Source of the DNA: Toxonevra muliebris
Taxonomy: Eukaryota; Arthropoda; Insecta; Diptera; Pallopteridae
Length of the DNA stretch: 64,000 nucleotides
Assembly: GCA_963691655.1 (NCBI GenBank)
Contig: OY829326.1
Span: forward strand, 75,571,235 to 75,635,234
Direction: 5' to 3'
The position numbers were made by a program, and so were the translations under genes. Positions 1-64,000 of the stretch are shown here, one piece after another (the first letter of the stretch is position 1; the number at the start of each line of letters is the position of its first letter). The notes beneath the pieces were generated by a model. It made no database searches, was not told where the DNA came from, and saw nothing but the letters and a program-made list of their open reading frames with translations.

Positions 1-1071
1 TCAAATCATTGCATTGTACCTCTAGATTTATGACAAGGCGCGTTGTCCTGCTGGAAAATTACTTGGCTATACAACGACAACGGCAAATCTTCGACATATG
101 GTATGAGGTGCTTTAACAACATTGTGCGATATGCCAATGCATCCAGGTTACCTTTTATACGGACTAAAGGTCCAACACCATGAGCACTAAAGCAGCCCAT
201 ACCATTATACTGCCTCCACCAAACTTCACAGTCTTTCTAGTGTACTTAGGATCTAATTCTTTGTTTGGAGGTCGTCGTACGTAAGTTCTACCATCAGGAC
301 CACACAGATTAAACTTCGACTCATCGCTCCAGATTATCGAATTCCAGAAAGATGAAGAAGAACCATTATTGCCTTTTGCGAATTCTAATCGCTTTTTCCT
401 ATTTCCATTTGTCACGCTCGGTTTCTTTATGCTCTGACATCCTCGAAGGTTTTTTTCCAAAAGCCGCTGTCTAACCGTCCTTGCCGCGATATTTACACTA
501 TATTCCGTCTCCAAGCGTGCCCTTATTTCAGAAGAAGAAGCAAAAGGATCTTTAAGAGCATGTCGGACCAATATGGAATCCTCTCTCTTGGATGTTTTTC
601 TGGGTCTGGATTTTCTTTTATTGGTAAACGTTCCATGGATTTATGCTACGTGCAATTTTGCTGATGTTTGGATCCTGTTGGTACATTCGCCATATTAGCC
701 TCCTTTCCCCCTCCGTAGAACTTTTTTGCCGTCCCATAACTATGTTTTTTGTACATTTACTCACTATACGATAATAGTTAAAATTTCCACACCACAATTA
801 AGCCCTCCAAAAATTTATAATTTTAATTTAAATGTACCATGAACAATAGGATGTGTCAAGTGGAATACCGACGAAAAACGAATATATATGAATTCAAAAG
901 TAAAACGTGGCTAAATGTTTACATTTATAATGAATATATATTTATTGATGATGGTAAATAATTTATATTATCAAATTTATTACAAATATTATTTTGAAAA
1001 TATTTTATGATATCAAATTAGGTAGTATAGAGAAGTTTCATGGGGGTGTGCTAATTAGCTTGCCAGGGCTG
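1..1071 (-). mobile_element. Tc1-like DNA transposon, 5' part, decayed, running off the window
   Basis: Seen: on the minus strand a transposase reading begins at an ATG at 737 (MGRQKSS..., helix-turn-helix region), is broken near 640, continues as 571-164 with the first catalytic aspartate in IIWSDESKF, shifts frame near 197 at the GGGSIMVW motif, and continues as 200-6 to the second aspartate in FQQDNAPCH. The glutamate of the DDE triad lies beyond the window edge. The outer end is CAGCCCTGGCAAGCTAATTA read on the minus strand, starting at 1071 and bordered by a TA at 1072-1073, as expected for Tc1 elements. The element sits in an intron of the coiled-coil gene at 1398-4680. At least two frame breaks make it non-functional. 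Confidence 0.9.
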
Positions 1072-18767: not shown

Positions 18768-21700
18768 CTGTAGAGAAGAAAAAACAAAAATTTCTTCGCA
18801 TTGTATCTCCTCAATATGAAGAAGATAAGATATCGTAGGTTTTCAAGCAGAAATCACTTGATCTAAATTGATTTTTTGATTGTGTTCGTAATAAATAGCT
18901 TTTAAAAATCATATGAGGTTCTAAATTAAATGAATTTTGATGATACATATCGCGCCATCCATTGTAAAAACTGACTTAATCTCAGAAATTAAAAAATGAT
19001 CTTAATAATTTATGCCTGAACGCCTACGATATGTTAGCTAGTACTTACATTAATATGTCTATTTATGCAGCTAACTGGACGAACCCTTGTGAATTCGTGT
19101 TCATGCTTAAAGCATGCAAATGTCTGATTTGGATCTAAATCATAAGTGATATCTATTGGATTGACAGTGAGCAGCTCTCTGTGATTGCTGGGACACATTT
19201 GGTCGATAACAAGCAATATTAAATTGCTAGCCGGAATTGGCAACACAACAAATGGCCGCTCACATGCATGTGCTGTCATATTGTAAGCAACATTGTCCCT
19301 TTCATTGTACATCGTATATAATATACGTTCCATGTCACATGATTTTAGTCGCTTTCGCTGCAACGTTATTGAACGTACCCAGTCGAAGGTTTTTGTATGT
19401 GAGGAGTAATCTGTCATATTATCATGCATATAAAGGTCGTTAATTTGAGCGGCTACTGTACTCAATTGCACAATATACCACAACAACGTATATAGCAGCC
19501 ATTTGAGTGTGCGAATAACGTGAAATAAAGGCTGAATGGAAACAGGAAACAAAGAGAAATTAGGAGTATGCGGTTAGCAAATGTTGCTAATTTTCAACTT
19601 ACCGAAAATAAGCTATTAGATGCATTATTATCGCCAGTGGATTCAAAACAAACTGCTTGATAATCATACACGTTTACCCTTTTATAGACTTTTTCAGCAA
19701 TCAAACGTTTCATAATGCCGCTATTAACCTCACCAAAGAATTTACCTGTCTCATAGCGATGCGGTGAAATAATAATGAAACCATTATTATCTAAAATATA
19801 ACAACCTTTATCGCCAAGCTTGCAACTCTAATTTAAAAAAGGAATTAAAGATTATAAGTCATATACCGTTTTTATTCCAATATTTCCGACATTTTTCTGC
19901 TTTAACTTACATTTCCGGTAATGTTTCGAAATAGTTTATAAAGGGCCGCATGTTGAAATTGAAAACCCACAACAGCAGCTGGTGCAGATTTGCCACCTTC
20001 ACTATGAAAAATGGCATGACTTGCAGTGACGATTGTTTCGGCGCCCGTTTCTATTCAAGCATAAAGTAACATTGATCAAAACAAGAGTTAAATAAATCTG
20101 CAAATTCTACTAACCTCCCACATCAAACGGAACCGAATAGACAAAACTTTCTTCACGCACGAAGTGCTGATCCACGGCGCGTTTATACCAAATTTCATCA
20201 ATGGCGCGTTTATTATGCTTGCTGAAAGTTTCGCTGCAAAGTTACGAAAGAGATTATATGTATTTATGTAAATGTGGAAAAATGGCCCGTAAATTGAATT
20301 TCTTATTTATGTGTTAAGGCACCTGCACGCAAATCGATCTGATTAACTTAAAATCCGTTACTCGGGGGTTTTCGGGGTCGCTGATTACGAACTTTGCATC
20401 AGATTTTAAAAATTCAAAATGACACAATATGGCGGAAGAATTTTTTTAAAAAATTGATCGGTTTCGCTTGAAACTCGTTACTAGGGGATACTGGAAGTCA
20501 CTGATTACGAATTTAATATCAAATTTGTAATTAGTGACTCTTATTCCTGAGTAGCGAGTTTCAAGCGAATCCGATGAATTTGAAAAATAGTTGGCAATAT
20601 TGGATCTAAAATTTTGAAAATCCAATGTCAGATTCGTAATTAGCGCCGTCGAAAGCCTCTGAGTGACGATTTTGAATCCAAATAATTTGTGCTTTAACAG
20701 CTTTTTTCTTGAAAACTTGTTTTTGGAAGTTAGTTCTCTTTTTTAGTACACCAAAGCATTATTATATGTATAACTTTCGTACGAATATTTCACTAATATT
20801 TAAGGAGAATCTTTTTGAAACTAAGAAAACCAAAAATCCAAAAAAAAAAAACAAACAAATTTATATTTTTCAAATTTTAAAATGTATCCTTAATCTGTTA
20901 ATCAGTATTTGGAGTAATCAAAAATTATGATTAGTTTCGAGTATCCTTACCCGGCACCCGCTTCTTCAGCAACATTCGAATGGAATTCCTGCCAACGTGT
21001 GAGACCGCTATGTGTTGCCAAAAATGCGACAGTGATGCCAAAACGTTGTTTGAATTCATTTCTGAGAAAATTGAGGTGAACAATTTGTTAAAATTTAATT
21101 TGAAAGAAATTCAAAACATAAAATTATTTTCTATCAATGTTGTTAATGTTGGTTTACTATAGTTTTTTTAACCAATATTTTACCTTGGCAACAAACCCAT
21201 TAAAACTGCAATTGGGCTTGAAGCACTTGTGCTATTCCATATATTAAATTATGCATTTTTTTATATTAGCAAATTAAAGTGTCATTTGAAATATTTTAAT
21301 AAATGTGCATTAGAAACAAAAATTTGAATGTATTTAAATAATAGAAAAAAACATTTCATAGACAAGAAAAAGAATAAAATAAATAAATGTGGAAGAAAAT
21401 TGAATACAATAAATAGAAAATAATGTGAATCTTCTTTTTGCTAGAACAAAGACTTCTTAATTTTCACGTATAGAATTTAAATACTAAGCAGTATAATTAA
21501 GTAGATGAATGATTGTCTCTGAATTCTTCAAAATGATAAACAATAGTTGGTTCGGAAAACAAAAATTTTAGACAATAACTTCTATTCTGATGAAATTTTA
21601 ATATATAACTTAAATAATAGCCGTTATTTTCTGACTCAATTTACTTTAAACTTTAGGGGCTTAAGCATACACGAAATTTTATTAGATAATTCACAACTTT

Positions 21701-39700: not shown

Positions 39701-42700
39701 AATTGACATCACTGCGATAAAGCAAATAAAAAAAAAAAAAAAAATTTGGCGATCACCTTGCATGTTGTATATTCCAGTCGATTTCAGTAATAATCAGGTT
39801 ATATTTATAGAAATTAACATTGCTAATGTATGGTAATTAAATAATATTACGCAATTCATCTATGTATGCTGATACAATATTCTTTGAGCATAACACATAA
39901 CATATTTATCAATGAATACAGGAAACACAACTTTTTCGTTTATTAGAAATGGTATTTTATTTTTCTCAGAGAATCACCTATATATACCCTATCCCCACAT
40001 TGAACGCATTCAGTACGATTTGATTTTCAATTGAATAAACATTAAAAAATGTTCAAAATTCAGATAAACGTAAGTAAATAACAGATTATTTCTCATGTTA
40101 TAGTTCTTATACCATAAGCTTTCAGCTTCTGCTGTGCACAATTTTAATTGTTGCAATTGTAAAAATTTCCGGACAGGAGTCAGTGCAGGGATTTCAAGGC
40201 CATCCATTATTTACTATCCCCCGTATACCTGAAAGACCACTACAACCACAGAACACGTATCTCCCACCAGCACCAGAAAAACCTCCAGGCATTGTTTATC
40301 TCCCCCCATCTTCATTGAAAAGTGCTGCTGGTTAAAACTTGAATAACACTGCAATAATTTTTAGCAAATTATTTCGGGCTTCAGAGGAACCTGTTTCATA
40401 TAAAAGTATTAGTTAGTACTCACGATTTTTTTTTTTTTAATTTTGGTCAAAAATAGCCTAAAATGATATGACAATCCATGTGTAAATTTACAATTAAGAT
40501 GAACCCTGTCTTCAAACCCCCATACTAAAATTTTACGAGAAATCTTTCCTGAGAGTATTTTTACCCATTCACTCGTACTTATATGCACGGTTGCCATTTA
40601 CTCATTTTATTTTGTACCAATATTTACAATAAAATGTACCAAATGGGGAAAATTGTACCAATTTTTTTTTATATGGAATAAATATATTTATTTAAAACTT
40701 TTTGTTTGTTTATTATATAAAACACTATTTATTAATTTAAACAAAATAAAAAGAAGAAAACATAACACATTGATTGAAATATATTTTGTATTTTAAAAGT
40801 AGTCTTTAGACGGCCGGAAATAATGAGACCCTTTACATCCGACACACAATTCTTTTGAAAGCATTGCATATTATAAATATTTAAATTTCACTTTTTTCAA
40901 CAAAAAGTATTTTGAAAATATGTTTGCAACTCTTAACTACTATAAAACTAAGTTATTTCACAGAATCTACCAAATTTTAAAAACATGTACCAAGCGCAGA
41001 AAAATTGAAAAAAATTTACCAGTTTTGGTAGAATTGTACCAAGTGGAAACCGTACTTAAATGAGTATTCAAAGGTTAAAGGGTTTCACGAAAATATTTTG
41101 CGAAAAATTTTACTAGGGGTAGATGCTTTTTATCTTTAGTGACTCCTAGTGAAATTTTTCTTAAATAAAAAGGAGACTTTCCTGGGATTTCACAAAAAAT
41201 GCCCAAAAATAATCATAAAGGTAGGAGTTGATGGGCTAAATATTCTGAGAAAGTAAAATTAAGTTTTCGTATCATTTGATTTGCTATTTTTGACTAAAAT
41301 TTGGAAATTTTAACCCACTGTGACAAAAAATTGCGAAGAAATGGACAAAAACCCAGCTAAGATTTTACGACTATTAACTAATATTTTCATATGACATAAT
41401 AAACAAAATTAAAGCAACGTTCCAAGCTAGTGTGATTTTAAAATTGGTTATGGAATACAAATAAAATAATTCATCAACTGCCAATAAACTGTTTGTTTTA
41501 TAAATCGTTAATACTCTAGTAGATAAAACTTTAATTAACGCTCTAATTCTCCACCGTGTATCTAGACAACTAAATAGGGATGCAAAAAATGAGTGTTTTT
41601 TTGTTGAAAAAAAAAACGGGTTTTACCGAGTACTTTTTCCAACGTTATTAAACCGGTATACCGGTGAGGAAAACTAAAAACCGACTACTCAGAAATGTTG
41701 TCGTTTCGAAATATTTAAAAATAAAAAATTTAAATACAAAAAAAATTTTAATATACCAAGTTTTTAAAACGGACTAAAAAGTATAAAATAATTTCTCCTA
41801 GCCCCATACAGATTTATAACCCCATACAGATTCATAATCCCATACAGATTGTCTTGAAAATATGTAATTATGAATTTTAGTAGGTCTGAAAATACTTGTA
41901 TGATTTAAAATGAAAAGCTTGGGACGCTTATGGATAGAGGTAAAATTGATAGCGACTTAAGTGAACTATGGTATTCATCTATCAATTTCATATTGCATGC
42001 GACCCACTATAATTCATTGTCATCCAGTTCTGAACTATATTTAAAATTTAAAGTCTCTATCTCATCGATTGCAAAATTCCGACCGAATAGACAGACTGAC
42101 AGACAGACACCATTGAAAGCGGGTTGATATAAACGTGGTAATAAAATAGCCATTTTTTACTACCGCCGAATGTTATTTCTGTTGCTCCGTATTTTACTTG
42201 GTTAACTCACGAACAGAATTTCTCGATATTAACAGGGGTTGAACGTGATTCAGAAAGGAATACAATTATTCCAAACGAATTAACGATATAAGCACATATC
42301 TTTGCCAAAAGATTTTACCGCGAAACAGGAAACCCTGTAAAATATTGCAGCGAGAACCAACACATTCCACATTCATCGGAAGTGGCATTCAAATTCTGAA
42401 CTATAGTTGACAGTTCAGTGGGACCCGAAAAACAAGAGTCGGCAATAAATTCTGTCGTAACAGATAATAGAAGCCGATTGTCAGACAATCACGTCACCAA
42501 AAGAGTTTTTCTCAGCTGTATCGATGATATATATTCGAGTAATTAATTAATACCTAAAATTACATTTTTATTTTATTATTATACTGTTAGTTTTGTTTGT
42601 TTTATACTGTAAACTAACTCACTCTATTTTATACTATTACTAATTGTTAATGAATTCTCACTGATATTAAAAATAGAACAATTATTAGTTTTTTTTTTTA

Positions 42701-45700
42701 ATTTTTATTTATTGATTAAAAAATATTAAAATTTTATTTGAGTTTTTCCGTTTTTTAAGTGAGATTTTTTTTAGGTTTTTTTTTTTTGTCATGCTTTAAA
42801 CAGAGGAAAAATACAGGTTAACCGAAATAGAGTTGTTTTCTCTTTAATCTGCATCCCTTTAGCCTTCATCAGAACGAGTGTAATTACTACCATAACAGAT
42901 TTCTATTGCTACATTTTTGGGGAGTCTCCCAAACTTTAAAAAAAATGTATCGGCTATGCAGTCAAAGTCAAAAATTTGTGTGAAACACGACAATAAATTA
43001 TTTGGATTGTATTCGACAATTTTAGTTAAGAATAAAAAAATATCAAAATATGTACCCCGTTATAGGTACTAGCAGAGTAAAACTGAGCTATCCGCAGGGT
43101 GCAAGCAAAAGTCAGTTAGAAAGAGTGCGCGCGAAACTGTATTGTTTGAGGTCGCGGGCAAAAACGAATTAGGTTTTGAGGTAATGAACAAACATATCTA
43201 TTCGGATCTTCAACCCTCTCAGGATTTTCGTACACATTTACATACCAACCAAAAAATTTGTTTTGTGTTCCCTTTTTTTTTTTTGTCGTCAAATTCAAAA
43301 AATTATTAAAAATAGAAAATAATAAAAAGATGTGTAAAAAAAGAATTTTGTATGTAGATAGAACCTTTCTCTGTCGATAGACCTAACGGGAAAATTGGAA
43401 GCGCTACCCAAAAAAGTTCTTTGAGAGCGCTCCTTTTGTGCTCTCGTGGAAGTCTGCCCCACAGTATCGCTTTGATTTGTATTTTCTTATTACGCTTCAA
43501 AAAACACTTCACTTTTTTAAAAATCACTTCTATTTTTTAAAAATTTCACTTCACAAAAAAATTTCAAAACGACGGTCATATTTTACGGATTTGCCTTTAA
43601 ATGCGATCAAACCCGTGTTACTTTGCGAAATTATTCGTAATAATGCACTTTTAGGAGCAAAATAGTACACTTTTAATGAAAGTGATACTTTTATCAATAT
43701 ATTTTATCTAGACTTATGATAAAATATACTTAGGTTGTAACAACTGAACTACATTGAGTTATCGACCTGTTATTCTTTGGAAATGGTCTGTAATCGTTCC
43801 GAGAATAGTTTCTCATACTTATCTCACATTCATTAAATTTTGGATTTGTTAAACTTTGGAATTGAGGTATCGATATGAAATTTAAAGAACTGAAAGAAAG
43901 GTATAAATAAAAAAGGACGGAAAAATACTAAAAGTATTTAAAAGGCGTACTAGTGATCGGCCATCAAATGATCGTCTGCATAACACAATTTAAAAAGAAA
44001 ATAGTCAAGATTTGTATTCAATTTATTAATTCTAAATGTTTTTAAAACGTATACCTATGTACATACTTTTCGTTATTTATTTTTTATTGCGTGATTTTCA
44101 AATTAACAATTCCTGGTATTTTATTTTTTAACGAAATGCATTAAGCAAGGCAGTTTGTTCTACTTACCTGAGCATCTGCATAAACTTGTGTCCAAATGAC
44201 AGGATGATCATGCCTACCTAATACTAAAGGTCTTGCCATAACTGGTATATAATTCAATACCATTTCCCGTACTTCTGCCATATCACTTAGGTGCACATAG
44301 TATCCTTGATTGGCACATGCCATCCATTTAATATCCTTGACATCGGCTACTTCTTTGCCAATCAAATACGTGAAGACGCGCACCGGCTTATAGGGTAATT
44401 CCCCTGAATTGTATTGATCAAAAACATACTCATAGCTAAAAGGTGCGCCATCGCTAATTATCATAATGGCCTGATTGCATTGTGCGCCACGTCCATCGCG
44501 TTTCACATCTTTCAAAACCTCAAATGCCCTTGAAATTGCCGCAGAAAAGTTGGCCATATTTTTCATTTTAATATTCCCAAGTCCCTCCTTAAGTTCTCGG
44601 ACGTTGAAGAGATTTGCCTGATTTGTGCGTTTCATTTTTCAATGTAGTGTAAAGTAAATCGGATAGATGTGTATTATGAGTGTATTTTTTAATGATATTT
44701 ATGAATTTCAATACGAAAAAATACTCAGAAAATATAATATAAACAAAACTAGACATGCTTTTTTTTAATTAATATTGGTATTTATTTCATTTCGCAAATT
44801 TCACCAATAAATAAAATATGGTATTTAATCTTCAACTATATAAAATTGGATGCAATAAGTTTGTTTATTGGTCTTTTAGAAGTTTCCACAATCTAAAGCT
44901 AAGAAAAAAAGTTTTGGCAAGTGGGCGTGGCATCTCCCATGCAGCTCAAGTTTTCTTTGGGTATACATATCTCCGCAATCAATTACAGAACAATACTAAA
45001 TCTTGGTACAATTTCATGCCACAGAAAAAAGATGAGTGAAATTGGAAATGAGGGCGTGGCACCTCCCATATAACTTGAACTAAGATTTGGTGTAAAAATA
45101 TGATTTGTCAATGGTATTCTGGCAGAAAAATATGGATGGGTGTGGAGTAGTGGGCATGGCCATCCCCATACAACTCGAATGTGTTTTTGGAGCCATTTAC
45201 ACCATACCACTGAAATTTGGTACAAGAACATTGGTTGAAACAGCTATGCTACAAGAAATATGTGGTTGGGATTGTAAAAGAGGGCGGGGTCCTATCTATC
45301 CATACTGAATTTTCATTATTAGATAACTCAGAACTATTTATGGTGCGGTAGTAAGGATTGGTATGAAAATAAGATTTTTTAATTAATTTAGTTGGGTAAA
45401 ATATGGGTAGGTTTGATTTAGTAGTTGTGACACCTTCTATGCAACTCTGATTTTTAATACGGTATATTTCCAAGATTATTTATATTAGCACGAGAACTTG
45501 AATTGCCAGTGGGATGCTGTAAGAAATAAGTGAATAGGTTAGAGGGAATGGGCTTCAATACAAAGGAAATGTTTGAAAAGGTATATCTTAGAAACCATAG
45601 CAAGTTAGACAATGAAAGTTAGTGTGTGGAGGGGATATATTGGTAATTGGGCACAATGTGATTGTTTTCGCGAAAGTAGGTATAATATCTCCAATACAAA

Positions 45701-48700
45701 AGAACTGCTTGAAAAGGCATATGTGGGGATCCTAGCAAGGAAAGCTTTAACTGTTTGTTCGTATATTGGTAGTTAGTAGTTATTAGGAGTCATTGCAAGA
45801 AAGGTGACGAGGGTTTGAATATTAAGATGGGATGTTAATAGCATTAATTGAGAAAAAGCCCATCTGGTCCAAAATTTTTTTAAAATTTATACTTATTCAA
45901 TTTTTGAATGGTTTAGTTTTTAACATGAAAGAGTGATCTTTTTATGTAGCCTTTATTTTCTTATGAAGTTTTACGAAATAAAATAAATTTAACCAAAAAT
46001 TTTATATTAAAATAATTTGTTCAACTCGAGACAATACCACTGTATTACAGTAAAATATAACATTGCAAGAAACATTGTGGAGCTAGTTGAGCTGGAAGAA
46101 AATGGTGGAATATAAGAGATGTTTTTTACTTTCCGTTTTTTATAATAATTTGCATACAATATTTTTAATTCTAAAGACATCTTTGGTACAAATATGTTTT
46201 CTTTGTTTTTTAATATCTTTAACTTTAACAAGAATTTATGTTCTGGTTTCGATCGAAAAGATTTCTTCTTCTGTACAAGTCTCATCTATTTGAAAAAGTC
46301 TCATCGCTACGAAAAGCTAAACTTTAAACTAACTAAGTTACCGATTTTTAAGTTCCTGTAGAAAAACAAATACTAATTTTACTTAGATCGAACAGAGATT
46401 ACAGAGATCGAACTACTGTTTACGGCGGACTTGTGTCAACTAAAAAAGAGTTACAGCGTTTGAGACAAAATGTAACTATTAACAATTATATATTCGAAAT
46501 CGTCAAAGATTTCACATATCTAGGATCCATTGTTAGCAGCAAAAACATAGTCAGCCTTGAGATCAAGCAAAGAAAAACTCTTACCTGCAATTCCTACTTC
46601 GGACTTATTAGGCAATTGAACAACAGAACATGAGCTATGAAACCATGAGTTGTACACCAACATAAAAATTCGGTGGCTTTTCTTGTTGGGTTTGGTTGAG
46701 TGAATAGCTAGTAAGGTATTCTATTTGAGTCACGGTGATGAACATACAGAAGAGGGCGACCTAATTTCCGTTGGAAAGACCGCGGTAAATGAAGCAGAGA
46801 CGACTGGCTTTATTGAGAAGCCAAAAAACCGGTACGTACGAACAAAATAAGCGAAAAATTAAAATTTGCTAAAAGTTGTTTATGTAAAATTTGAATCCAA
46901 GAATAAGAGAGAAACACCGACTGACGATAATATAGTTCCCTGAACTTGATTACCTTTTTTTTTTTAGAAATTAGCCGGTATTTGAAAATTTCAGATTTGT
47001 GTTTACGATATTTATTGTACACAATTGGTTTTTGTTTCACCAACCCTACAACCTCCATAATGTTTAAAAGTTTTGAAATATTCTATATATCTTGTAAAGC
47101 TGTGTTATTGTTAATATTTCCATTAAATATGACCGATAAAAAATTTAAACAAATTAAAATAATTCTAATTAAAATATTAAAAATTATATATACTTGAACA
47201 AGCGTATCCTCAAAACATGACACGACAGGCTTTACTTCGTCGCCAAAGGTGAAGATGTTCACAAAGTCATTTGTACCTAACGTATCGAGTATTGTGCTTA
47301 CAACATGCTTTGCGATATCTAGCCTATGTCCAGTCATAGAGCCTGAGCCATCCAAAAGGATAACTATATCCTTTGGACTAGTCGCTGCCTCCATATACCA
47401 TGAACGCAAACGGCAATCGTACAGGTCGACCGGATTCATTTTCCATTGCGCTGCAGGAAATTGACGCATAAATCCGGTCGAACTGCCATAGAATTGCCAT
47501 GAAAGTGTTGGATCGTTTTTATAATTATCACGAAATATTTGATCCAAATTTTCCGACCATTGAATTGCTTTTATGACTTCCGGTGCTGAACGTGGAAGCG
47601 GAAGTGTTTTATTTGTTTGATAATAATTTTAATAATAATGACGTTGTCGATGGTGTTGATATTAATGTGTTGTTGTATAAAGAAGATGCATATGTTGTTA
47701 TTGTGCAAAGAAAATAGAAAAGAAAATGTTTTTTTATTTTTTTAATTGTTTGCTTAAGTAAATTATTTCTTTTGAATTATGTAGCTAGGTATGCTAAAAA
47801 CTTCAAATATTGAAAATTAAACATAAGAAATATGTACTTTAGAATTGAATTGATTTAACCCTTTCGGCCCGAAAAAAAGCTGCTGGGTGTACAATATTTG
47901 TACTAAGTGAATCTTAAACACTAAGGGCCAATTTCACAGTATACATTTAAATTTAATTTAAGTTAATTGTAAATTAAAAATTAAATGCAATTTAACTTTT
48001 TGCGGTTTTCACAGTGTCTGCATTTAGATATTAAATATTAGTGGCAACACTGCGGTCTTCGCCATGAGTTGGTTGTCGTTAAACCTTTGCGAATACAGTA
48101 ATATCTCAATTTATGTTTCTCTACTGATATTGTCTTGTTTTACATCTTCAAAAAAATTGCACTATATTTTTATTTCGGCTCTCAAGTTACTCAATTTATA
48201 CTATAAATAATTGTTTTCTCCGAAATATGTCACTTCCGAAGTTTTTCACCCTCAATTAAGATTGAATGTTTTGCCGTCAAATACTTGTGTATCGAGTCAC
48301 TTAATTTGGGTAATACTGTAAACAAAAAGAAATAGATTGTTGGCATAAAACAATTGAAACAAACTTGAAATGGATAATTTAACAGATAAAAGATCCCTGT
48401 ATGGGACAGGAGGTGGCCCTCCACAGAAGCTGAAGCGCCACGAATTCGATGAAAAATTGTATGATGTTGTTCCTGAAAAGCTAATAAATGGCCTTGGTTC
48501 ACAATCAGTTGTTTACTTTTTTCTACACAGGGTTGCATGTACTTCATTTAAATGCCCATAATTGGCCATTTAAATTGCAATTAAATTTAAATTAACTTCG
48601 AACTATGAAAATGAAATTTCAGAAATTAAGTATCAATTGCAATTTAAATGACCACTGTGAAATTGGGCCTAAGAAATAGTAAGATTTTTTACCGTTCCAG

Positions 48701-51700
48701 AATTTAAATTTTCGTCGTCAGAGGTGCTGGGGACCCCCGTCAAAGTACGACTGGGACATACCTATAATCCTATGAACTAAAACACATAGCTTTATGAAAA
48801 ATAATTTTATATTCAAAATTGAATTATAAATGAATGGGACACGTACATAATAAACACACGGAAAAGAGTATAAAACATAACATTTACCGCTTCTTTCATA
48901 TTTTTTCAGATTTTTGAACACGACTTCACTAATAAACAGATTACAAATAACTAAAGAACGGAAACAGTTCATTCCCATGCATGGTCTTCAGCAAATTATT
49001 TCAGCAAATTATTTCAGGGTCGAAAAGGTTAAATGCTATTGAATCTTTTGTTTAATCAATATGAAACTGTTTGCAACTAGTTCTAAACAGAATACAGCTT
49101 TCCATAATTTGACTGGATGGCAGATTTTTGCTGGAGCTATTCGCACAGTAACTTTTTTGCAATTTTCTTTAAATTATAAGAAATGTACATTACTAGCACC
49201 AAAAATGTCTGTGTAATATTCTCTAGCAAAAATCATAATTAAAATATGAATATATGTATGTAAGTATGTATGCATGTAAAAATGTTGGTAGTGCTCAAAC
49301 CTCTATCAAAAACATTTGTTGGCACATGTACTGAACTAATGGTTAAATTAACTGAAATATTGAAAAATTCCAGATTCGGTGATAGAACTATCGTTTTGGG
49401 TATTACGAATATTTTCGGCTCGCCAGCATCATCTAGTTCACGTTTTGGTGCTGTTGGTACGGTGTCATTTGGTTTAATCATCTCTTTGGCATTATAATAT
49501 GAAAAATGTTGATCGGCTTTTTCATTTTGATGTGAGAGGGCGGTATTTTCTGCCGTATCCATAATTCGCTATCAATTAAAATGTTATTTATTTATTTATT
49601 TTTTTAAGATATTAACTAAAAATTTAAAACTAATATATACAGCTATGACAACAGAGACGTTGAGCTTAACTAAGTATACAATAAATATAATTTAATAGCA
49701 ATTGAAATGCTTCTTTTTCTTGTTTTTTTTTAATACATATGATTTTTATTTCTCTTTACTTACTCGTACAGCACTGATTTTTAACTCCATCATCATTTGT
49801 ACTTCATGTGCCATATTTTCAACAATTTTGCCACCAGATCTTGATACAACTTGTGCCTCCTTAAAACTCTGTTGGAGGAGACGGAAAATTCAAATTCTTT
49901 AATTAGGTTCATAAACATACTAATAAACATTTATTTGAAGCCTTCAAATAAAATTGAATTAAACCATTAACCAATAGGCTTTGGAGCCGAACCCTGAACC
50001 CATGTCTTCCGAAACTGAATCCAAACTCACAATTGGTTGGTTGAATGGTTTAGGTTCAAGCCTTCTTTAGGAGAATTTTAATCGACTAACTTGTAAATAA
50101 AAACGTGTAAGAAAATACAACATTGTTTCATTTTAACAATGGAAAAATAACTGTAATTAATTTGGTAGAGTTAGGATAAAATGTTTTGGAATTGTGGTAG
50201 CATCATAAAATTGATCTACCTTATTTGAAGCATTACCTCAAAAGAATAGGGTGACTCGCCCAATAAATGAACACTTCCCAGATTCCCAGATTGTGTAAAT
50301 ACCAATCATTTGTTTACTTCGAAATAATATTTTAAAAAAATTATCAAATTTTTGTTTCCAACAGTTGGGACCATATATAGTTCCTTGGGCAGTGTTTAAG
50401 GTTTGGTGAACTTTGGTGCATTTTCCAGTTTTTACTACAAATTCGAAATGGAGCGACTAATGGACGATGAGAAATGGAATAAACATGTGAATGATTATAG
50501 CTGGTGTGAAAGTGAAGATATTGCAGTTTTTTCGGAGGGTGATTTTTACAGCTTGAGGTCGTCCTTTTCATATTCCACCAACAGACATTAAACTGGATAA
50601 CATAGGGCACCTCCCGAAAATTAAGCCAGCCTCCGAGGGACGATTCAAATCCAAAGTTCCTGGTTGTGGTAAACGTACTATAACGTATTGTGCTAAATGT
50701 GATCTTCAAAGATGCTATAAAGGCGAACTACATACTGTTTCTACAAATTTCACACAGAATAATTGGTATAAATTTTCATTTTTGGTTATTTTTCTCAATA
50801 AAGAGATTTTTTTTTAAAAAAAGTTGTGCATTTCTATTTTACTTGATACTGCCCAACGAACCATATATGGTCCACAAGGTAATTTCCGATTTTAAGGTAT
50901 TGAAAAAGTCATAGAACAAAAGTTGTTTAGAATGAAGAATGCTATCCCTTAACATTTTTTTAAACAAAATTTGCCTTGTTGGGCAGGGAAAGGTTAAAAC
51001 CATTTTCAAAACCATTCGGTTTAGATTTTATGGCGGTTTTTATGTGTTAAGAGCCGGATCAGTGATGAGATCAGCTGGAACCTATCATTACACTGTGCGA
51101 CACCAAAAATATGAATCCAAATCTCTCAACGGGTTCTGAAAGCACTAGGCACAATTATATTGCCGATGCGTTTTGCTACTTTAGGTCAAATAAGCGATTT
51201 TTTCGTGCTCTTAACTCATAAACTACAAGGAATTTCGTATTGATGTTTTCGGCAAAATTCGGTCTCTTAAACAGGTCTACAATATTGCAGAGCACTGTAG
51301 CAGCAAAAAGTTAGTAAAGGGTATGGGATTTGAGACTAAATGCATGTAGCTACAAGTTTTTTATTATTTATTTATATTCTTTTACCTTGCTACAATTTTG
51401 CAGTATACATATATAGGTAGCCCCAAAAAATCAACTTAAAGCAGCCAATTTTGACCCAAAAGTGTAAAATTAAAAAATATTGAGCTTATATAGTGAGTCA
51501 CAAAACTGATCAGAAACCACGCAGGGCCTTTAGAAAAATAACTGTAATTTATTTGGTAGAGTTAGTATAAAATGTTTTGAAATTGTGGTAGCATCATAAA
51601 ATTGATCTACCTTTATTATTTGAAGCATCACCTCAAAAGAATAGAGTGACTCGCCCAATAAATGAACACGTCCCAGTTATTTATTACAGTAAGAAACCTT

Positions 51701-58480: not shown

Positions 58481-58860
58481 TTAAAGACGTTTAAAAAAAA
58501 AGCTTTAAATATGAGCTTTTCTTCCAAATCTGTTAAATATGCATGCTAAAACAAGAATTTGATGGAAAAAACTAGCCCTGCTAAAAACATATAAAAAAAA
58601 TTTAAATGTTATAATAAAAAATTCCCGAAATGACCTCCATAATCAGGCACACCAGACTACATCCTTAAACAATTCGTTGCCGAAAAAATAAATTTTAATC
58701 AAATCTCTGCTGGAAAGTTTAATTGTTTATAACAAATTGACAAATTAATATTTTACATTAAAATAAATGTGACATATTTTTCTCTACTAGAACTTTGTTT
58801 AGCAAATTTTCGTTGAATTATTCCGACACTGGGTAAATTCGATATCCGCCTTAGAAAGCC

Positions 58861-59111
58861 TTACCTACCAGCGCCGCTTTTCAATGCACTTTCTGACATA
58901 AAAATGTTGCCTGTTTCGTTAGCTGCTACTGGTCGAAGCAACATGAGAACTAATGGGCGACCTTGAAATCTCTGCAGTGACTCTTCGCCGGAAATTTGTA
59001 CAATTGCAACAATTAAAATTGTGCACAACAATAGCTGAAAAATTATGGTGTAAGCACTATAATATGTGAAATAAACTGTTATTTACTTACGTTTATCAGA
59101 TTTTTTAACAT
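58861..59111 (-). CDS. Small secreted peptide gene (paralogue B)
   Basis: Minus strand, two exons: 59091-59111 (MLKNLIN, donor GTAAGT) and 58861-59034 (acceptor aatttttcag), intron 56 nt, 64 residues. Signal [16 protein letters not shown] is almost identical to paralogue A. The mature part starts EESLQRFQGRPLVLM and ends ALKSGAGR-stop, but the middle (LLRPVAANETGNIFMSE) has lost the proline-rich core of A. The C-terminal Gly-Arg could also be an amidation site after trimming. It lies about 4.2 kb upstream of the alpha2/delta ATG on the same strand, with its own TATA/Inr promoter. Family and function unknown; a real but rapidly diverging gene is more likely than a pseudogene since the frame and splice sites are intact. 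Confidence 0.75.
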
Positions 59112-59254
59112 TTTTTAATGTTTATTCAATTGAAAATTAAATTTTACTGAATTCGTTAAATGTGGGTATAGGCTATATATAGGTGATTCCAAAAGAAAAA
59201 TAAAATGTAATTTTTAATGAACGAAGAAGTTGTGTTTCTTGTATTAATTGATAA
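59112..59254 (-). promoter_or_regulatory. Core promoter and 5' UTR of minus-strand peptide gene
   Basis: Read on the minus strand: TATATATA at 59181-59174, Inr TCAGT with A+1 at 59148, spacing 33 nt, leader 37 nt, all the same as paralogue A. A GATA-type TTATCA (59254-59249) and gaaacacaactt are also conserved. Confidence 0.75.
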
Positions 59255-59526
59255 ATATGTGTGACGATTTTATATGGTCTTGCTATGGTTTGCCATTTCA
59301 TTTATAGTTTTTTTTGTTTGGTACTAAAAGAAACATTATCGAGCAGAAAGGGTGGCACGTTTTCTTGTTCGCTCTTGCATCACTGAAAAAATATATTTGG
59401 TGCCATACTCTGGTCTCATTGACAATAAATGGGCCAATAGAAGGGATTGATGAAAAAACGGAAAATAAAAACAGAAGGAAATTACAGAAATACATAAAGG
59501 AGAAACCAAACAACACAACTACAAAC

Positions 59527-61609: not shown

Positions 61610-62265
61610 TTAACGAAGGATTTTTTGTGCTATTTCATTTGCACTAAGCGTCTTCCATAACAGTTTGCAATCTAAGGTTACCCCTAAATATTTAACATTA
61701 GAAGACAACTGCAGTGTTACTCCCTTTATTTTTGGTAGTAACAGGCCATCCTTCTTGAGTTTCCCGGTGAAGAGCACTAAGATGCTTTTACCGGGATTCA
61801 CTGAAAGACCCTGCAGATTGCACCAAACCTCGATCTTGTTCAAGACTTCTTGCATTTTGATGCACACCGTCTGTAAGGACAGTCCCGAGATTAATAGTAC
61901 CCACACATCGTCAGTATACGCTTAAATGTGAACTCCAAAATTTTGCAAATCATTAAGAAGGGAGTCCACCACGAAGTACCATAGAAGAGAAGAGAGTACG
62001 CCCCCTTGAGGGCATCCTTTCTCAACCTCGACCATAACACTGTCATCGTTTTCTCCCCCCGTGATAAGCAGCCGTTTGAATAGCATGGTATGAATCCATC
62101 GAATGACGATTTCTTCAACACCATATTGTCTGGCCGAAGAGCACATCGAGTCGAAGGTAGCGTTGTCAAAAGCCCCTTCGAAATCGACAAACACTCCCGG
62201 GGTGTAGTTCCCTGCCTCCAGCCCTTGTTCAACTGTACTAACACAGTCGTGAAGAGCTGATAAAA
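61610..62265 (-). mobile_element. Non-LTR retrotransposon reverse transcriptase fragment (minus strand)
   Basis: Reads ALHDCVSTVEQGLEAGNYTP, VFVDFEGAFDNATFD, KGCPQGGVLSSLLWYFVVDS, LQNFGVHI-stop-AYTDDVWVLLISGLS, WCNLQGLSVNPGKSILVLFT, NVKYLGVTLD. RT motifs are in order; the catalytic FADD-type box is YTDD and is preceded by a nonsense codon. It resembles I/LOA/R1-type LINEs. Its 5' side is cut exactly where copy B (62266-62770) begins. Confidence 0.85.
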
Positions 62266-62772
62266 GGCGATAGTTTCGAATAAGTTTGCAATTTTGTTGT
62301 TGGCGTGAAAAATTCCTAAGAACAAATTATGTACCCATATCCATTCAAAAAGCCTTATTGTGTATACCACACAGTAGCGCTACCACCAAAAGTAAGTTGT
62401 TTTTTTTCGCAAACTAAACATATAAAACCAGATGAATTTTGATGATACTTATGTCGTTTTCAAAAAACATTGCACTTTTTTAAAAATCACTCCGTTTTTT
62501 TTAAGAATTTCAAAATTTGAAAACGGCTGCCATGCCGCGCACGCTCTAATCAGAGTACGCTCCGAGCACGCTCTTTCAAATTTTTGTGTATTGTTTCAAA
62601 TTTTCGTGCTCTGTCCGCTCAGTCAATTTCTTCTGAGCGGGCTCTGATCACAAAAAGAAACACAATTACGTTTGCTCTGAGTGCTCAGAGCAAAAAAGTA
62701 ACACGATTACGTTTTCTGACAAATCGTGCTCTGCTCTGAGCTAATAAAGAAAAACGCCTATGAAAAAAGTTT
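62266..62772 (-). mobile_element. DNA repeat element, copy B, abutting a LINE
   Basis: Reverse complement of copy A (56130-57035) without the nested MITE; the two differ by scattered substitutions and a small insertion (ggtggtagcgctactgtgtg) near 62370-62390. It provides the empty site for the MITE in copy A. Confidence 0.75.
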
Positions 62773-63173: not shown

Positions 63174-63768
63174 TATTATTTATTATTATTAGTATTAGAG
63201 GAGCCCAACCAGGCAGGCACTGCGACCTAAAAGATCTTTTGTGCCATTCCCCATTTTATGACAAAAGACGTTCGGCTGACCTAATAAAAGTCAAGACATC
63301 TTTCGTTGAAGAAGATTTCATGTGATCAGCCGTCAAAAACGAATAATCAAAGATTCTTCCTCTGAGCCGAGCCAAGGCCGGACACTCACACAGAATGTGA
63401 AGTGTCGTCTCGTCGTCTTCCATACATAGACGACATTCTGTCTCATTGGACAGACCTATTTTGCTTAGGTGATATCTGAGCCCATGGTGTCCAGACATGT
63501 AGCCCACCAATAGCCTAAGGTCAGGTTTGGAATAAGAGATGGGCTGATTTTGGGCAAGCGGAATGGTGAGAGCTTTTGCCTGTCTTAAACCCGGAATAGA
63601 GTTCCAATACTCTAGCCATTTTGCCTTAGACCACTCCTCAACGATAGATTTCGTAAAGGCCCAGCCGATTCCGCAAAACGGATCGGGGCCGAAGTGCTTG
63701 GTAGATGAACCTTGCCTAGCCAGTTCATCGGCGGCTTCATTACCAGCAATGTCACGGTGGCCGGGTAC
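63174..63768 (-). mobile_element. 5'-truncated LINE (RNase H end) inserted in the mariner copy
   Basis: Minus strand: PGHRDIAGNEAADELARQGS, WAFTKSIVEEWSKAKWLEYW, KPDLRLLVGYMSGHHGLRYH, CRLCMEDDETTLHILCECPA, ending SAERLLS-stop at 63256. GHxxxxGNExADxLA is the end of the RNase H domain and the CxxC..HxxxxC block is the usual 3' zinc knuckle. A (TAA)n-like tail precedes 63173. Both sides carry the identical 12 bp tatttgtctgat (63162-63173 and 63769-63780), proving insertion. Confidence 0.9.
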
Positions 63769-64000
63769 TATTTGTCTGATACCAATCCATGGTTTTCTTA
63801 GAGTAGTGGCAACTGGCTAAATAAGGCCAAAACTTCACTGGCGAATGGTGGTGAGGAACAAATAGCAATAGTGGTTTCGAAAGGCACTCTTTGATCTAAA
63901 TATCAGACGTCATAGAAGAGGATATCACAAATGCCCTGGATTTGAGACCACAGCTGCAAATAGCCTGCCACACCATTGATTTCTTTGCAAATTTATCCAT
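63769..64000 (-). mobile_element. Mariner-superfamily transposase, central part (5' of the split copy)
   Basis: Minus strand: MDKFAKKSMVWQAICSCGLK, SRAFVISSSMTSDI-stop, CLSKPLLLFVPHHHSPVKFW, PYLASCHYSKKTMDWYQTN. In related transposases I recall FWPDLASCHYS; here the Asp is Tyr and one stop is present, so it is inactive. It continues beyond the window. Confidence 0.8.

Follow-up and report, generated by a model that had tools for sequence, protein, structure and literature searches.

Two-exon genes for small, predicted secreted peptides in the fly Toxonevra muliebris: a putative family with a common 5′ cassette and divergent, probably amidated products

In the Hessian-fly SSSGP genes, as the available part of their description has it, the promoter, the 5′-UTR, the signal-peptide region and the intron are conserved and the mature coding region diverges; the intron lies inside the signal-peptide region or at its edge, and the SSSGPs are largely species-specific (PMC2955719). 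Among male accessory-gland peptides, Sex peptide/DUP99B, ovulin, head peptide-1 and maccessin appear phylogenetically restricted, according to the portion of the text at hand (PMC12077777), and three PRPs of Lucilia maggots are said, in the excerpt available, to resemble drosocin and metchnikowin (PMC7194015). Here, we analysed two loci, A and B, in a 64-kb stretch of DNA (the window, by which we mean the whole stretch), and their relatives in the genome. The initial annotation knew of no described family with this layout, a claim that is not supported, as the Hessian-fly SSSGP genes share the pattern in the part of that account available (PMC2955719). Since the combination of a conserved cassette and a variable product has already been published for the SSSGPs, we regard the fly genes as a new family within an already known type.

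The family itself appears to be undescribed as far as searched. A protein collection queried with A, with A and B and with the seven intact members gave no match, although its coverage of flies is uncertain and such an absence means little. In Pfam, none of the seven members reached a curated cut-off, the only match being PF02757 (YLP, E 1.3) in one of them, and PDB gave no meaningful match (best E 0.72, unrelated). The signal-core strings were not found in the main texts of the papers searched, and topic terms returned analogues only.

Structure of loci A and B and their place in the window

Both loci lie on opposite strands (A, 40049-40335, plus; B, 59111-58861, minus), correct to the base as first annotated, and each has the 56-nt phase-0 intron after codon 7 that had been proposed (Table 1). 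The predicted precursors are 76 (A) and 64 (B) residues long. An in-frame TAA is present in both introns, and the exon-2 frames, measured from stop to stop, comprise 85 codons in A and 73 in B. Upstream of the signal core, neither of these frames has an ATG; over its full length, that of A has none and that of B has two, both within the mature part. A donor-like sequence (AG/GTAAGG) overlaps the stop codon of B (58855-58870, minus), so that an additional B exon is possible; A and the distant member I stop at the corresponding place without it.

Table 1. Positions of features in the window
Feature	Position	Strand	Basis or remark
A 5′ cassette (upstream region and 5′-UTR), common to B	39900..40048	+	left edge of 87% BLASTN match
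A conserved upstream element AGGAAACACAACTTTTTCG, candidate regulatory site	39920..39938	+	by eye from cassette alignment
A TATA box TATATATA	39979..39986	+	−70 from ATG
A initiator TCAGT, likely transcription start	40010..40014	+	−39 from ATG
A exon 1, MFKIQIN, 21 nt	40049..40069	+	sequence read, BLASTN
A intron, 56 nt, phase 0, GTAAGT...TTTCAG	40070..40125	+	49/56 identical to B intron
A exon 2: remaining signal peptide, proline-rich mature part, LKSAAG, stop	40126..40335	+	
B 5′ cassette, common to A	59112..59260	-	BLASTN
B conserved upstream element AAGAAACACAACTTCTTCG	59222..59240	-	by eye
B TATA box	59174..59181	-	−70 from ATG
B initiator TCAGT	59146..59150	-	−39 from ATG
B exon 1, MLKNLIN, 21 nt	59091..59111	-	sequence read, BLASTN
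B intron, 56 nt, phase 0, GTAAGT...TTTCAG	59035..59090	-	sequence read, BLASTN
B exon 2: remaining signal peptide, variable mature part, LKSGAGR, stop	58861..59034	-	
Calcium-channel alpha-2/delta gene exons	49242-49568, 47086-47628, 44144-44638	-	Pfam, PDB
Further likely alpha-2/delta exon	19037-19573	-	VGCC_alpha2 below cut-off, E 0.012

By BLASTN, A and B are identical at 271 of 313 nt (87%, E 5e-107), from about −150 to the middle of exon 2. The identity amounts to 86% in the 5′ flank (90 of the 105 nt before the ATG), 86% in exon 1, 88% in the intron and 90% in the signal part of exon 2, and both loci have the same signal core, as noted at the outset. The likeness at the start of the mature part also holds (81% of the DNA over its first 12 codons), as does that of the ends, LKSAAG in A and LKSGAGR in B (LKSxAG; 64% over the last 15 codons), and between the two the alignment is barely above shuffled sequence (score reached by 16 of 500 shuffles). 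Outside the unit, beyond −150 and after the stop codon, we found no similarity in 300 nt on either side; for the 300 nt after the stop, the local score was 12.0 versus a shuffled mean of 13.3, and 164 of 200 shuffles reached it. Across the 15 pairs of six genes, the identity of the 150 nt on the 3′ side ranged from 0.34 to 0.53, a range given without a baseline.

The 5′ cassette has a regular core promoter. The TATA box lies at −70 from the ATG in A and B and at −69 in C, D, E and G, and the initiator at −39 in all six, with the version TTAGT in C, so that the TATA box is found 28-31 nt 5′ of the initiator in 6/6 genes checked (A-E and G). A further TATA-like match occurs at −50 or −46 in C, E and G; gene I, which was outside this six-gene check, has no clear TATA box at the usual place by eye. 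In the cassette alignment, stretches like the upstream element of A (AGAAAAATAACTTTTTC and variants) can be seen by eye in B, C, E, F and G, and in D a similar stretch sits nearer the TATA box. A tree of the 5′ cassettes of eight loci splits A and B from the remainder with a support of 97, the remainder being unresolved (41-63). Just 5′ of C there is also an orphan duplicated cassette (stretch L003, 1923-2067, minus; E 2.2e-27), which consists of the family promoter and start region and has no recognisable intron or second exon.

The window also contains exons of a calcium-channel alpha-2/delta gene, with Pfam matches to VWA_N and VWA at 49242-49568 and 47086-47628 and a match of the joined exons 47086-47628 and 44144-44638 to alpha-2/delta-1 in PDB (E 1e-57). 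B lies upstream of the first recognised exon of this gene and, if the exon at 19037-19573 is real, A would lie antisense within one of its introns. Elsewhere, transposase-like reading frames, of Tc1/mariner type by eye, occur at 9-797 (minus), and the frames at 61613-62379 and 63259-63816 (both minus) resemble, again by eye, the reverse transcriptase and RNase H of non-LTR retrotransposons. A coiled-coil frame like a myosin tail (1398-1607, plus; weak Pfam matches, all those listed being below cut-off) is followed by a Q/H/N-rich frame at 1672-2535.

Extent of the family in the genome

The proposal of a real two-exon secreted-peptide family was upheld, its restriction to two members was not, since at least nine loci were found in the 491-Mb genome (96 contigs), all on one contig (C1). 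Seven of them are intact (A, B, C, D, E, G and I), F has an early stop after 29 codons, and H is a remnant without promoter or first exon. On this contig, A and B lie near 75.6 Mb, D at 138.90 Mb, and C, H, G, E, I and F at 139.39-139.46 Mb.

A genome-wide DNA search with A returned B and the third locus, C, and a search with the C protein returned D (E 0.006), E (E 0.24) and F (E 0.24), in which the same layout was found on reading. A pattern of the signal exon matched seven places genome-wide, all of them family loci (7/7) and including the new locus G, and its reversed control matched none. A pattern of exon 1 and its donor matched five places, all already-known family loci (5/5; control 0), and missed G as well as C, the latter having a 3-nt insertion. 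The profile of the A-G 5′ cassette, run on fetched DNA, returned H (E 3e-27) and the distant gene I (E 2.4e-14). The I protein matched nothing else in the genome at E 10, and genome protein searches with E and A gave no further locus. Nine is thus a lower bound, the protein queries being those with A, C, E and I, with only the best candidates scored. By E-value the links between members are weak at the protein level, and homology is carried by the DNA cassette.

In all seven intact genes, a short phase-0 intron is predicted inside the signal peptide after a first exon of 21-24 nt. The predicted introns measure 56 nt in A and B, 73 in C, 74 in D, 71 in E, 76 in G and 71 in I, and the predicted products have 53-116 residues. 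A layout scanner that contained no family sequence (a start, a first exon of 12-40 nt, a GT[AG]AG[TA] donor, a short intron, a hydrophobic stretch and at least 40 codons) recovered these seven genes and no others from 24 stretches (293,701 bases). On 20 dinucleotide shuffles it gave six hits (mean 0.3, maximum 2), none with an amidation-type end. As the thresholds were set post hoc and the stretches picked around members, this shows coherence but gives no unbiased rate of discovery. For the 346 post-signal codons of the seven intact genes, the probability of remaining open by chance is 2.6e-10; this figure assumes that the genes are independent, an assumption that does not hold for A and B, and it excludes the two broken copies F and H. 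In summary, architecture, homology, open frames, amidation-type ends and mature-part diversity are legible in the DNA itself, and we are highly confident that this is a real coding family.

Divergence of the mature part and the C-terminal tail

Between A and B, the signal part has a dN of 0.08 and a dS of 0.296 (ratio 0.27), and the mature part, over 40 aligned codons, a dN of 0.445 and a dS of 0.49 (ratio about 0.9). The mature part is therefore far less constrained than the signal, and its divergence exceeds that of the intron (7 of 56 nt). A ratio of about 0.9 is compatible with weak constraint and with adaptive change, and taken alone it does not demonstrate positive selection. Mature dS is mostly high or saturated in the remaining 14 pairs, and dN slightly exceeds dS only in D/E and E/G. 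In C, D, E and G, the mature part begins with a mostly acidic segment (such as EESPELEAE in G), after which the sequences differ. Predicted mature charges range from −9 to +5 (C −8.2, D −9.1, E −2.2, G −6.1, I +5), and proline makes up 23% of the mature part in A, 5% in B and 3% in G.

A C-terminal Gly, Gly-Lys or Gly-Arg is a signal for C-terminal amidation. Such an end is found in five of the seven intact products (LKSAAG in A, LKSGAGR in B, LRGLGK in C, LKSIIG in E and CLKSSCGR in I) and is absent in D and G. The chance of an end of the form G[KR]{0,2} is 0.06 for each protein, and that of LKSxxG[KR]?, which occurs in 4/7 including the otherwise very distant I, is 3e-5 per protein; as A and B are close duplicates, their LKSxxG ends count as one event. 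The end common to A and B is better read as a putative amidation signal, and amidated products are probable in most members.

Possible roles and comparison with known peptides

We tentatively favour the reading that these genes make fast-evolving secreted peptides, probably amidated and perhaps seminal, a statement that, taken as a whole, we would place just short of an even call. Each gene joins a fixed cassette, made of the upstream element, TATA box, initiator, 5′-UTR of about 37 nt, exon 1 of 7-8 codons, short phase-0 intron and signal peptide, to a mature peptide whose length and composition have diversified. We infer that the genes are expressed and spliced and that, after secretion and removal of the signal, trimming of most members at the C-terminal Gly, Gly-Lys or Gly-Arg would give amides, with an LKSxx-amide tail common to A, B, E and the distant I. 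The early-stop copy and the remnant make birth and death in the family visible. As for tissue and role, the products may act as effectors from a gland whose secretion contains many fast-changing peptides, the male reproductive tract being the most likely source. Seminal-fluid, immune and salivary peptides would all be consistent with the small size, the predicted secretion and the rapid change. A reproductive (seminal-type) role, the case for which draws on general base rates and the weakness of the immune alternative, is possible without being probable.

That alternative holds that the peptides are host-defence products made on infection, like the Drosophila Bomanins or Daisho. According to the part of the source at hand, small amidated peptides include Daisho1 and, judged by prediction and mass, BomS5, and the daisho genes were found only in the genus Drosophila (PMC6989431). 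The proline content of A and the cationic character of I would suit such a function. However, kappaB, GATA and forkhead matches were at chance level in the promoters, where no tissue motif was identified. In six genes, the 180 nt that precede the TATA region contained one kappaB-like site of the Rel type (in B; 2.0 expected by shuffling) and none of the Dif type, and five GATA sites versus 4.9 expected. The scan was confined to these proximal 180 nt, and the six genes did not include I. Together with the acidic mature parts of four of the seven members (C, D, E and G), this lack of enrichment lowers the immune reading, which we judge unlikely.

Alternatively, the peptides could be salivary, gut or other exocrine effectors directed at hosts, food or microbes and evolving like the gall-midge SSSGPs, whose pattern of a retained promoter, 5′-UTR, intron and signal with a diverged mature part is the one seen here, as far as the available text goes (PMC2955719). 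In that same text, however, the SSSGP 3′-UTRs are described as conserved and the SSSGP-1 genes as spaced 0.2-1 kb apart, whereas the 3′ flanks of A and B have no similarity and the family loci are about 4 kb to 64 Mb apart, and we consider this origin rather unlikely too.

The amidation-type ends, and the LKS tail that A, B and E have in common with the otherwise very distant I, could also point to precursors of neuropeptides or hormones whose conserved C-terminal ligand would be an LKSxx-amide. Neuropeptides usually evolve slowly and have dibasic cleavage sites. Such sites are absent from five of the seven mature parts, and two of the seven lack any amidation end; we judge this possibility improbable. 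Similarly low is our estimate for a diversification system, in which gene conversion, or selection acting on promoter, intron and signal, would keep the cassette uniform, the middle would be free to vary under positive selection and the conserved LKSxx-amide tail would let one receptor or binding partner still recognise the products; the A/B mature ratio makes it less likely. That the loci are non-functional relics, which segmental duplication or mobile elements would have scattered through repeat-rich DNA, is very unlikely, for although many listed reading frames near the 139-Mb members resemble transposon genes by eye, one copy has an early stop, another is a remnant and the A/B flanks share nothing in 300 nt on either side, seven frames are intact with splice signals and signal peptides, the core-promoter spacing is constant in six intact genes, and the retained introns show that the loci are not retrocopies.

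If expressed, genes of this kind, with a first exon of 7-8 codons and products of 53-116 residues, would easily be missed by ORF-based annotation, and they would show that a fly lineage can use one cassette to bring out new secreted peptides again and again. Because the amidation-type tail recurs, the predicted amides could be assayed directly for activity.

Among described systems, the fly family can be likened by description to the Daisho peptides and short Bomanins, which are also tiny and secreted, Daisho1 being amidated and BomS5 predicted to be so in the available part of the source (PMC6989431), but its promoters have no kappaB enrichment in the 180 nt covered in six genes. It is likened to the accessory-gland peptides by description as well, although maccessin is cysteine-rich and without an amidation signal. 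With the proline-rich AMPs metchnikowin, drosocin and the Lucilia PRPs, A has its high proline share in common, a trait that does not extend to the family (5% in B, 3% in G). The likeness to the SSSGPs is one of pattern. From the 5′ flank to the signal part of exon 2, A and B are 86-90% identical and their mature part is diversified, as in the SSSGP genes. The differences, judged against the available part of that description (PMC2955719), lie in the unrelated 3′ flanks of A and B, in the loose group of about 63 kb (139.39-139.46 Mb), with other members 0.5 and 64 Mb away, in place of the single 15-kb array of SSSGP-1, and in the recurring LKSxxG amidation-type tail, which is a feature of the fly family.
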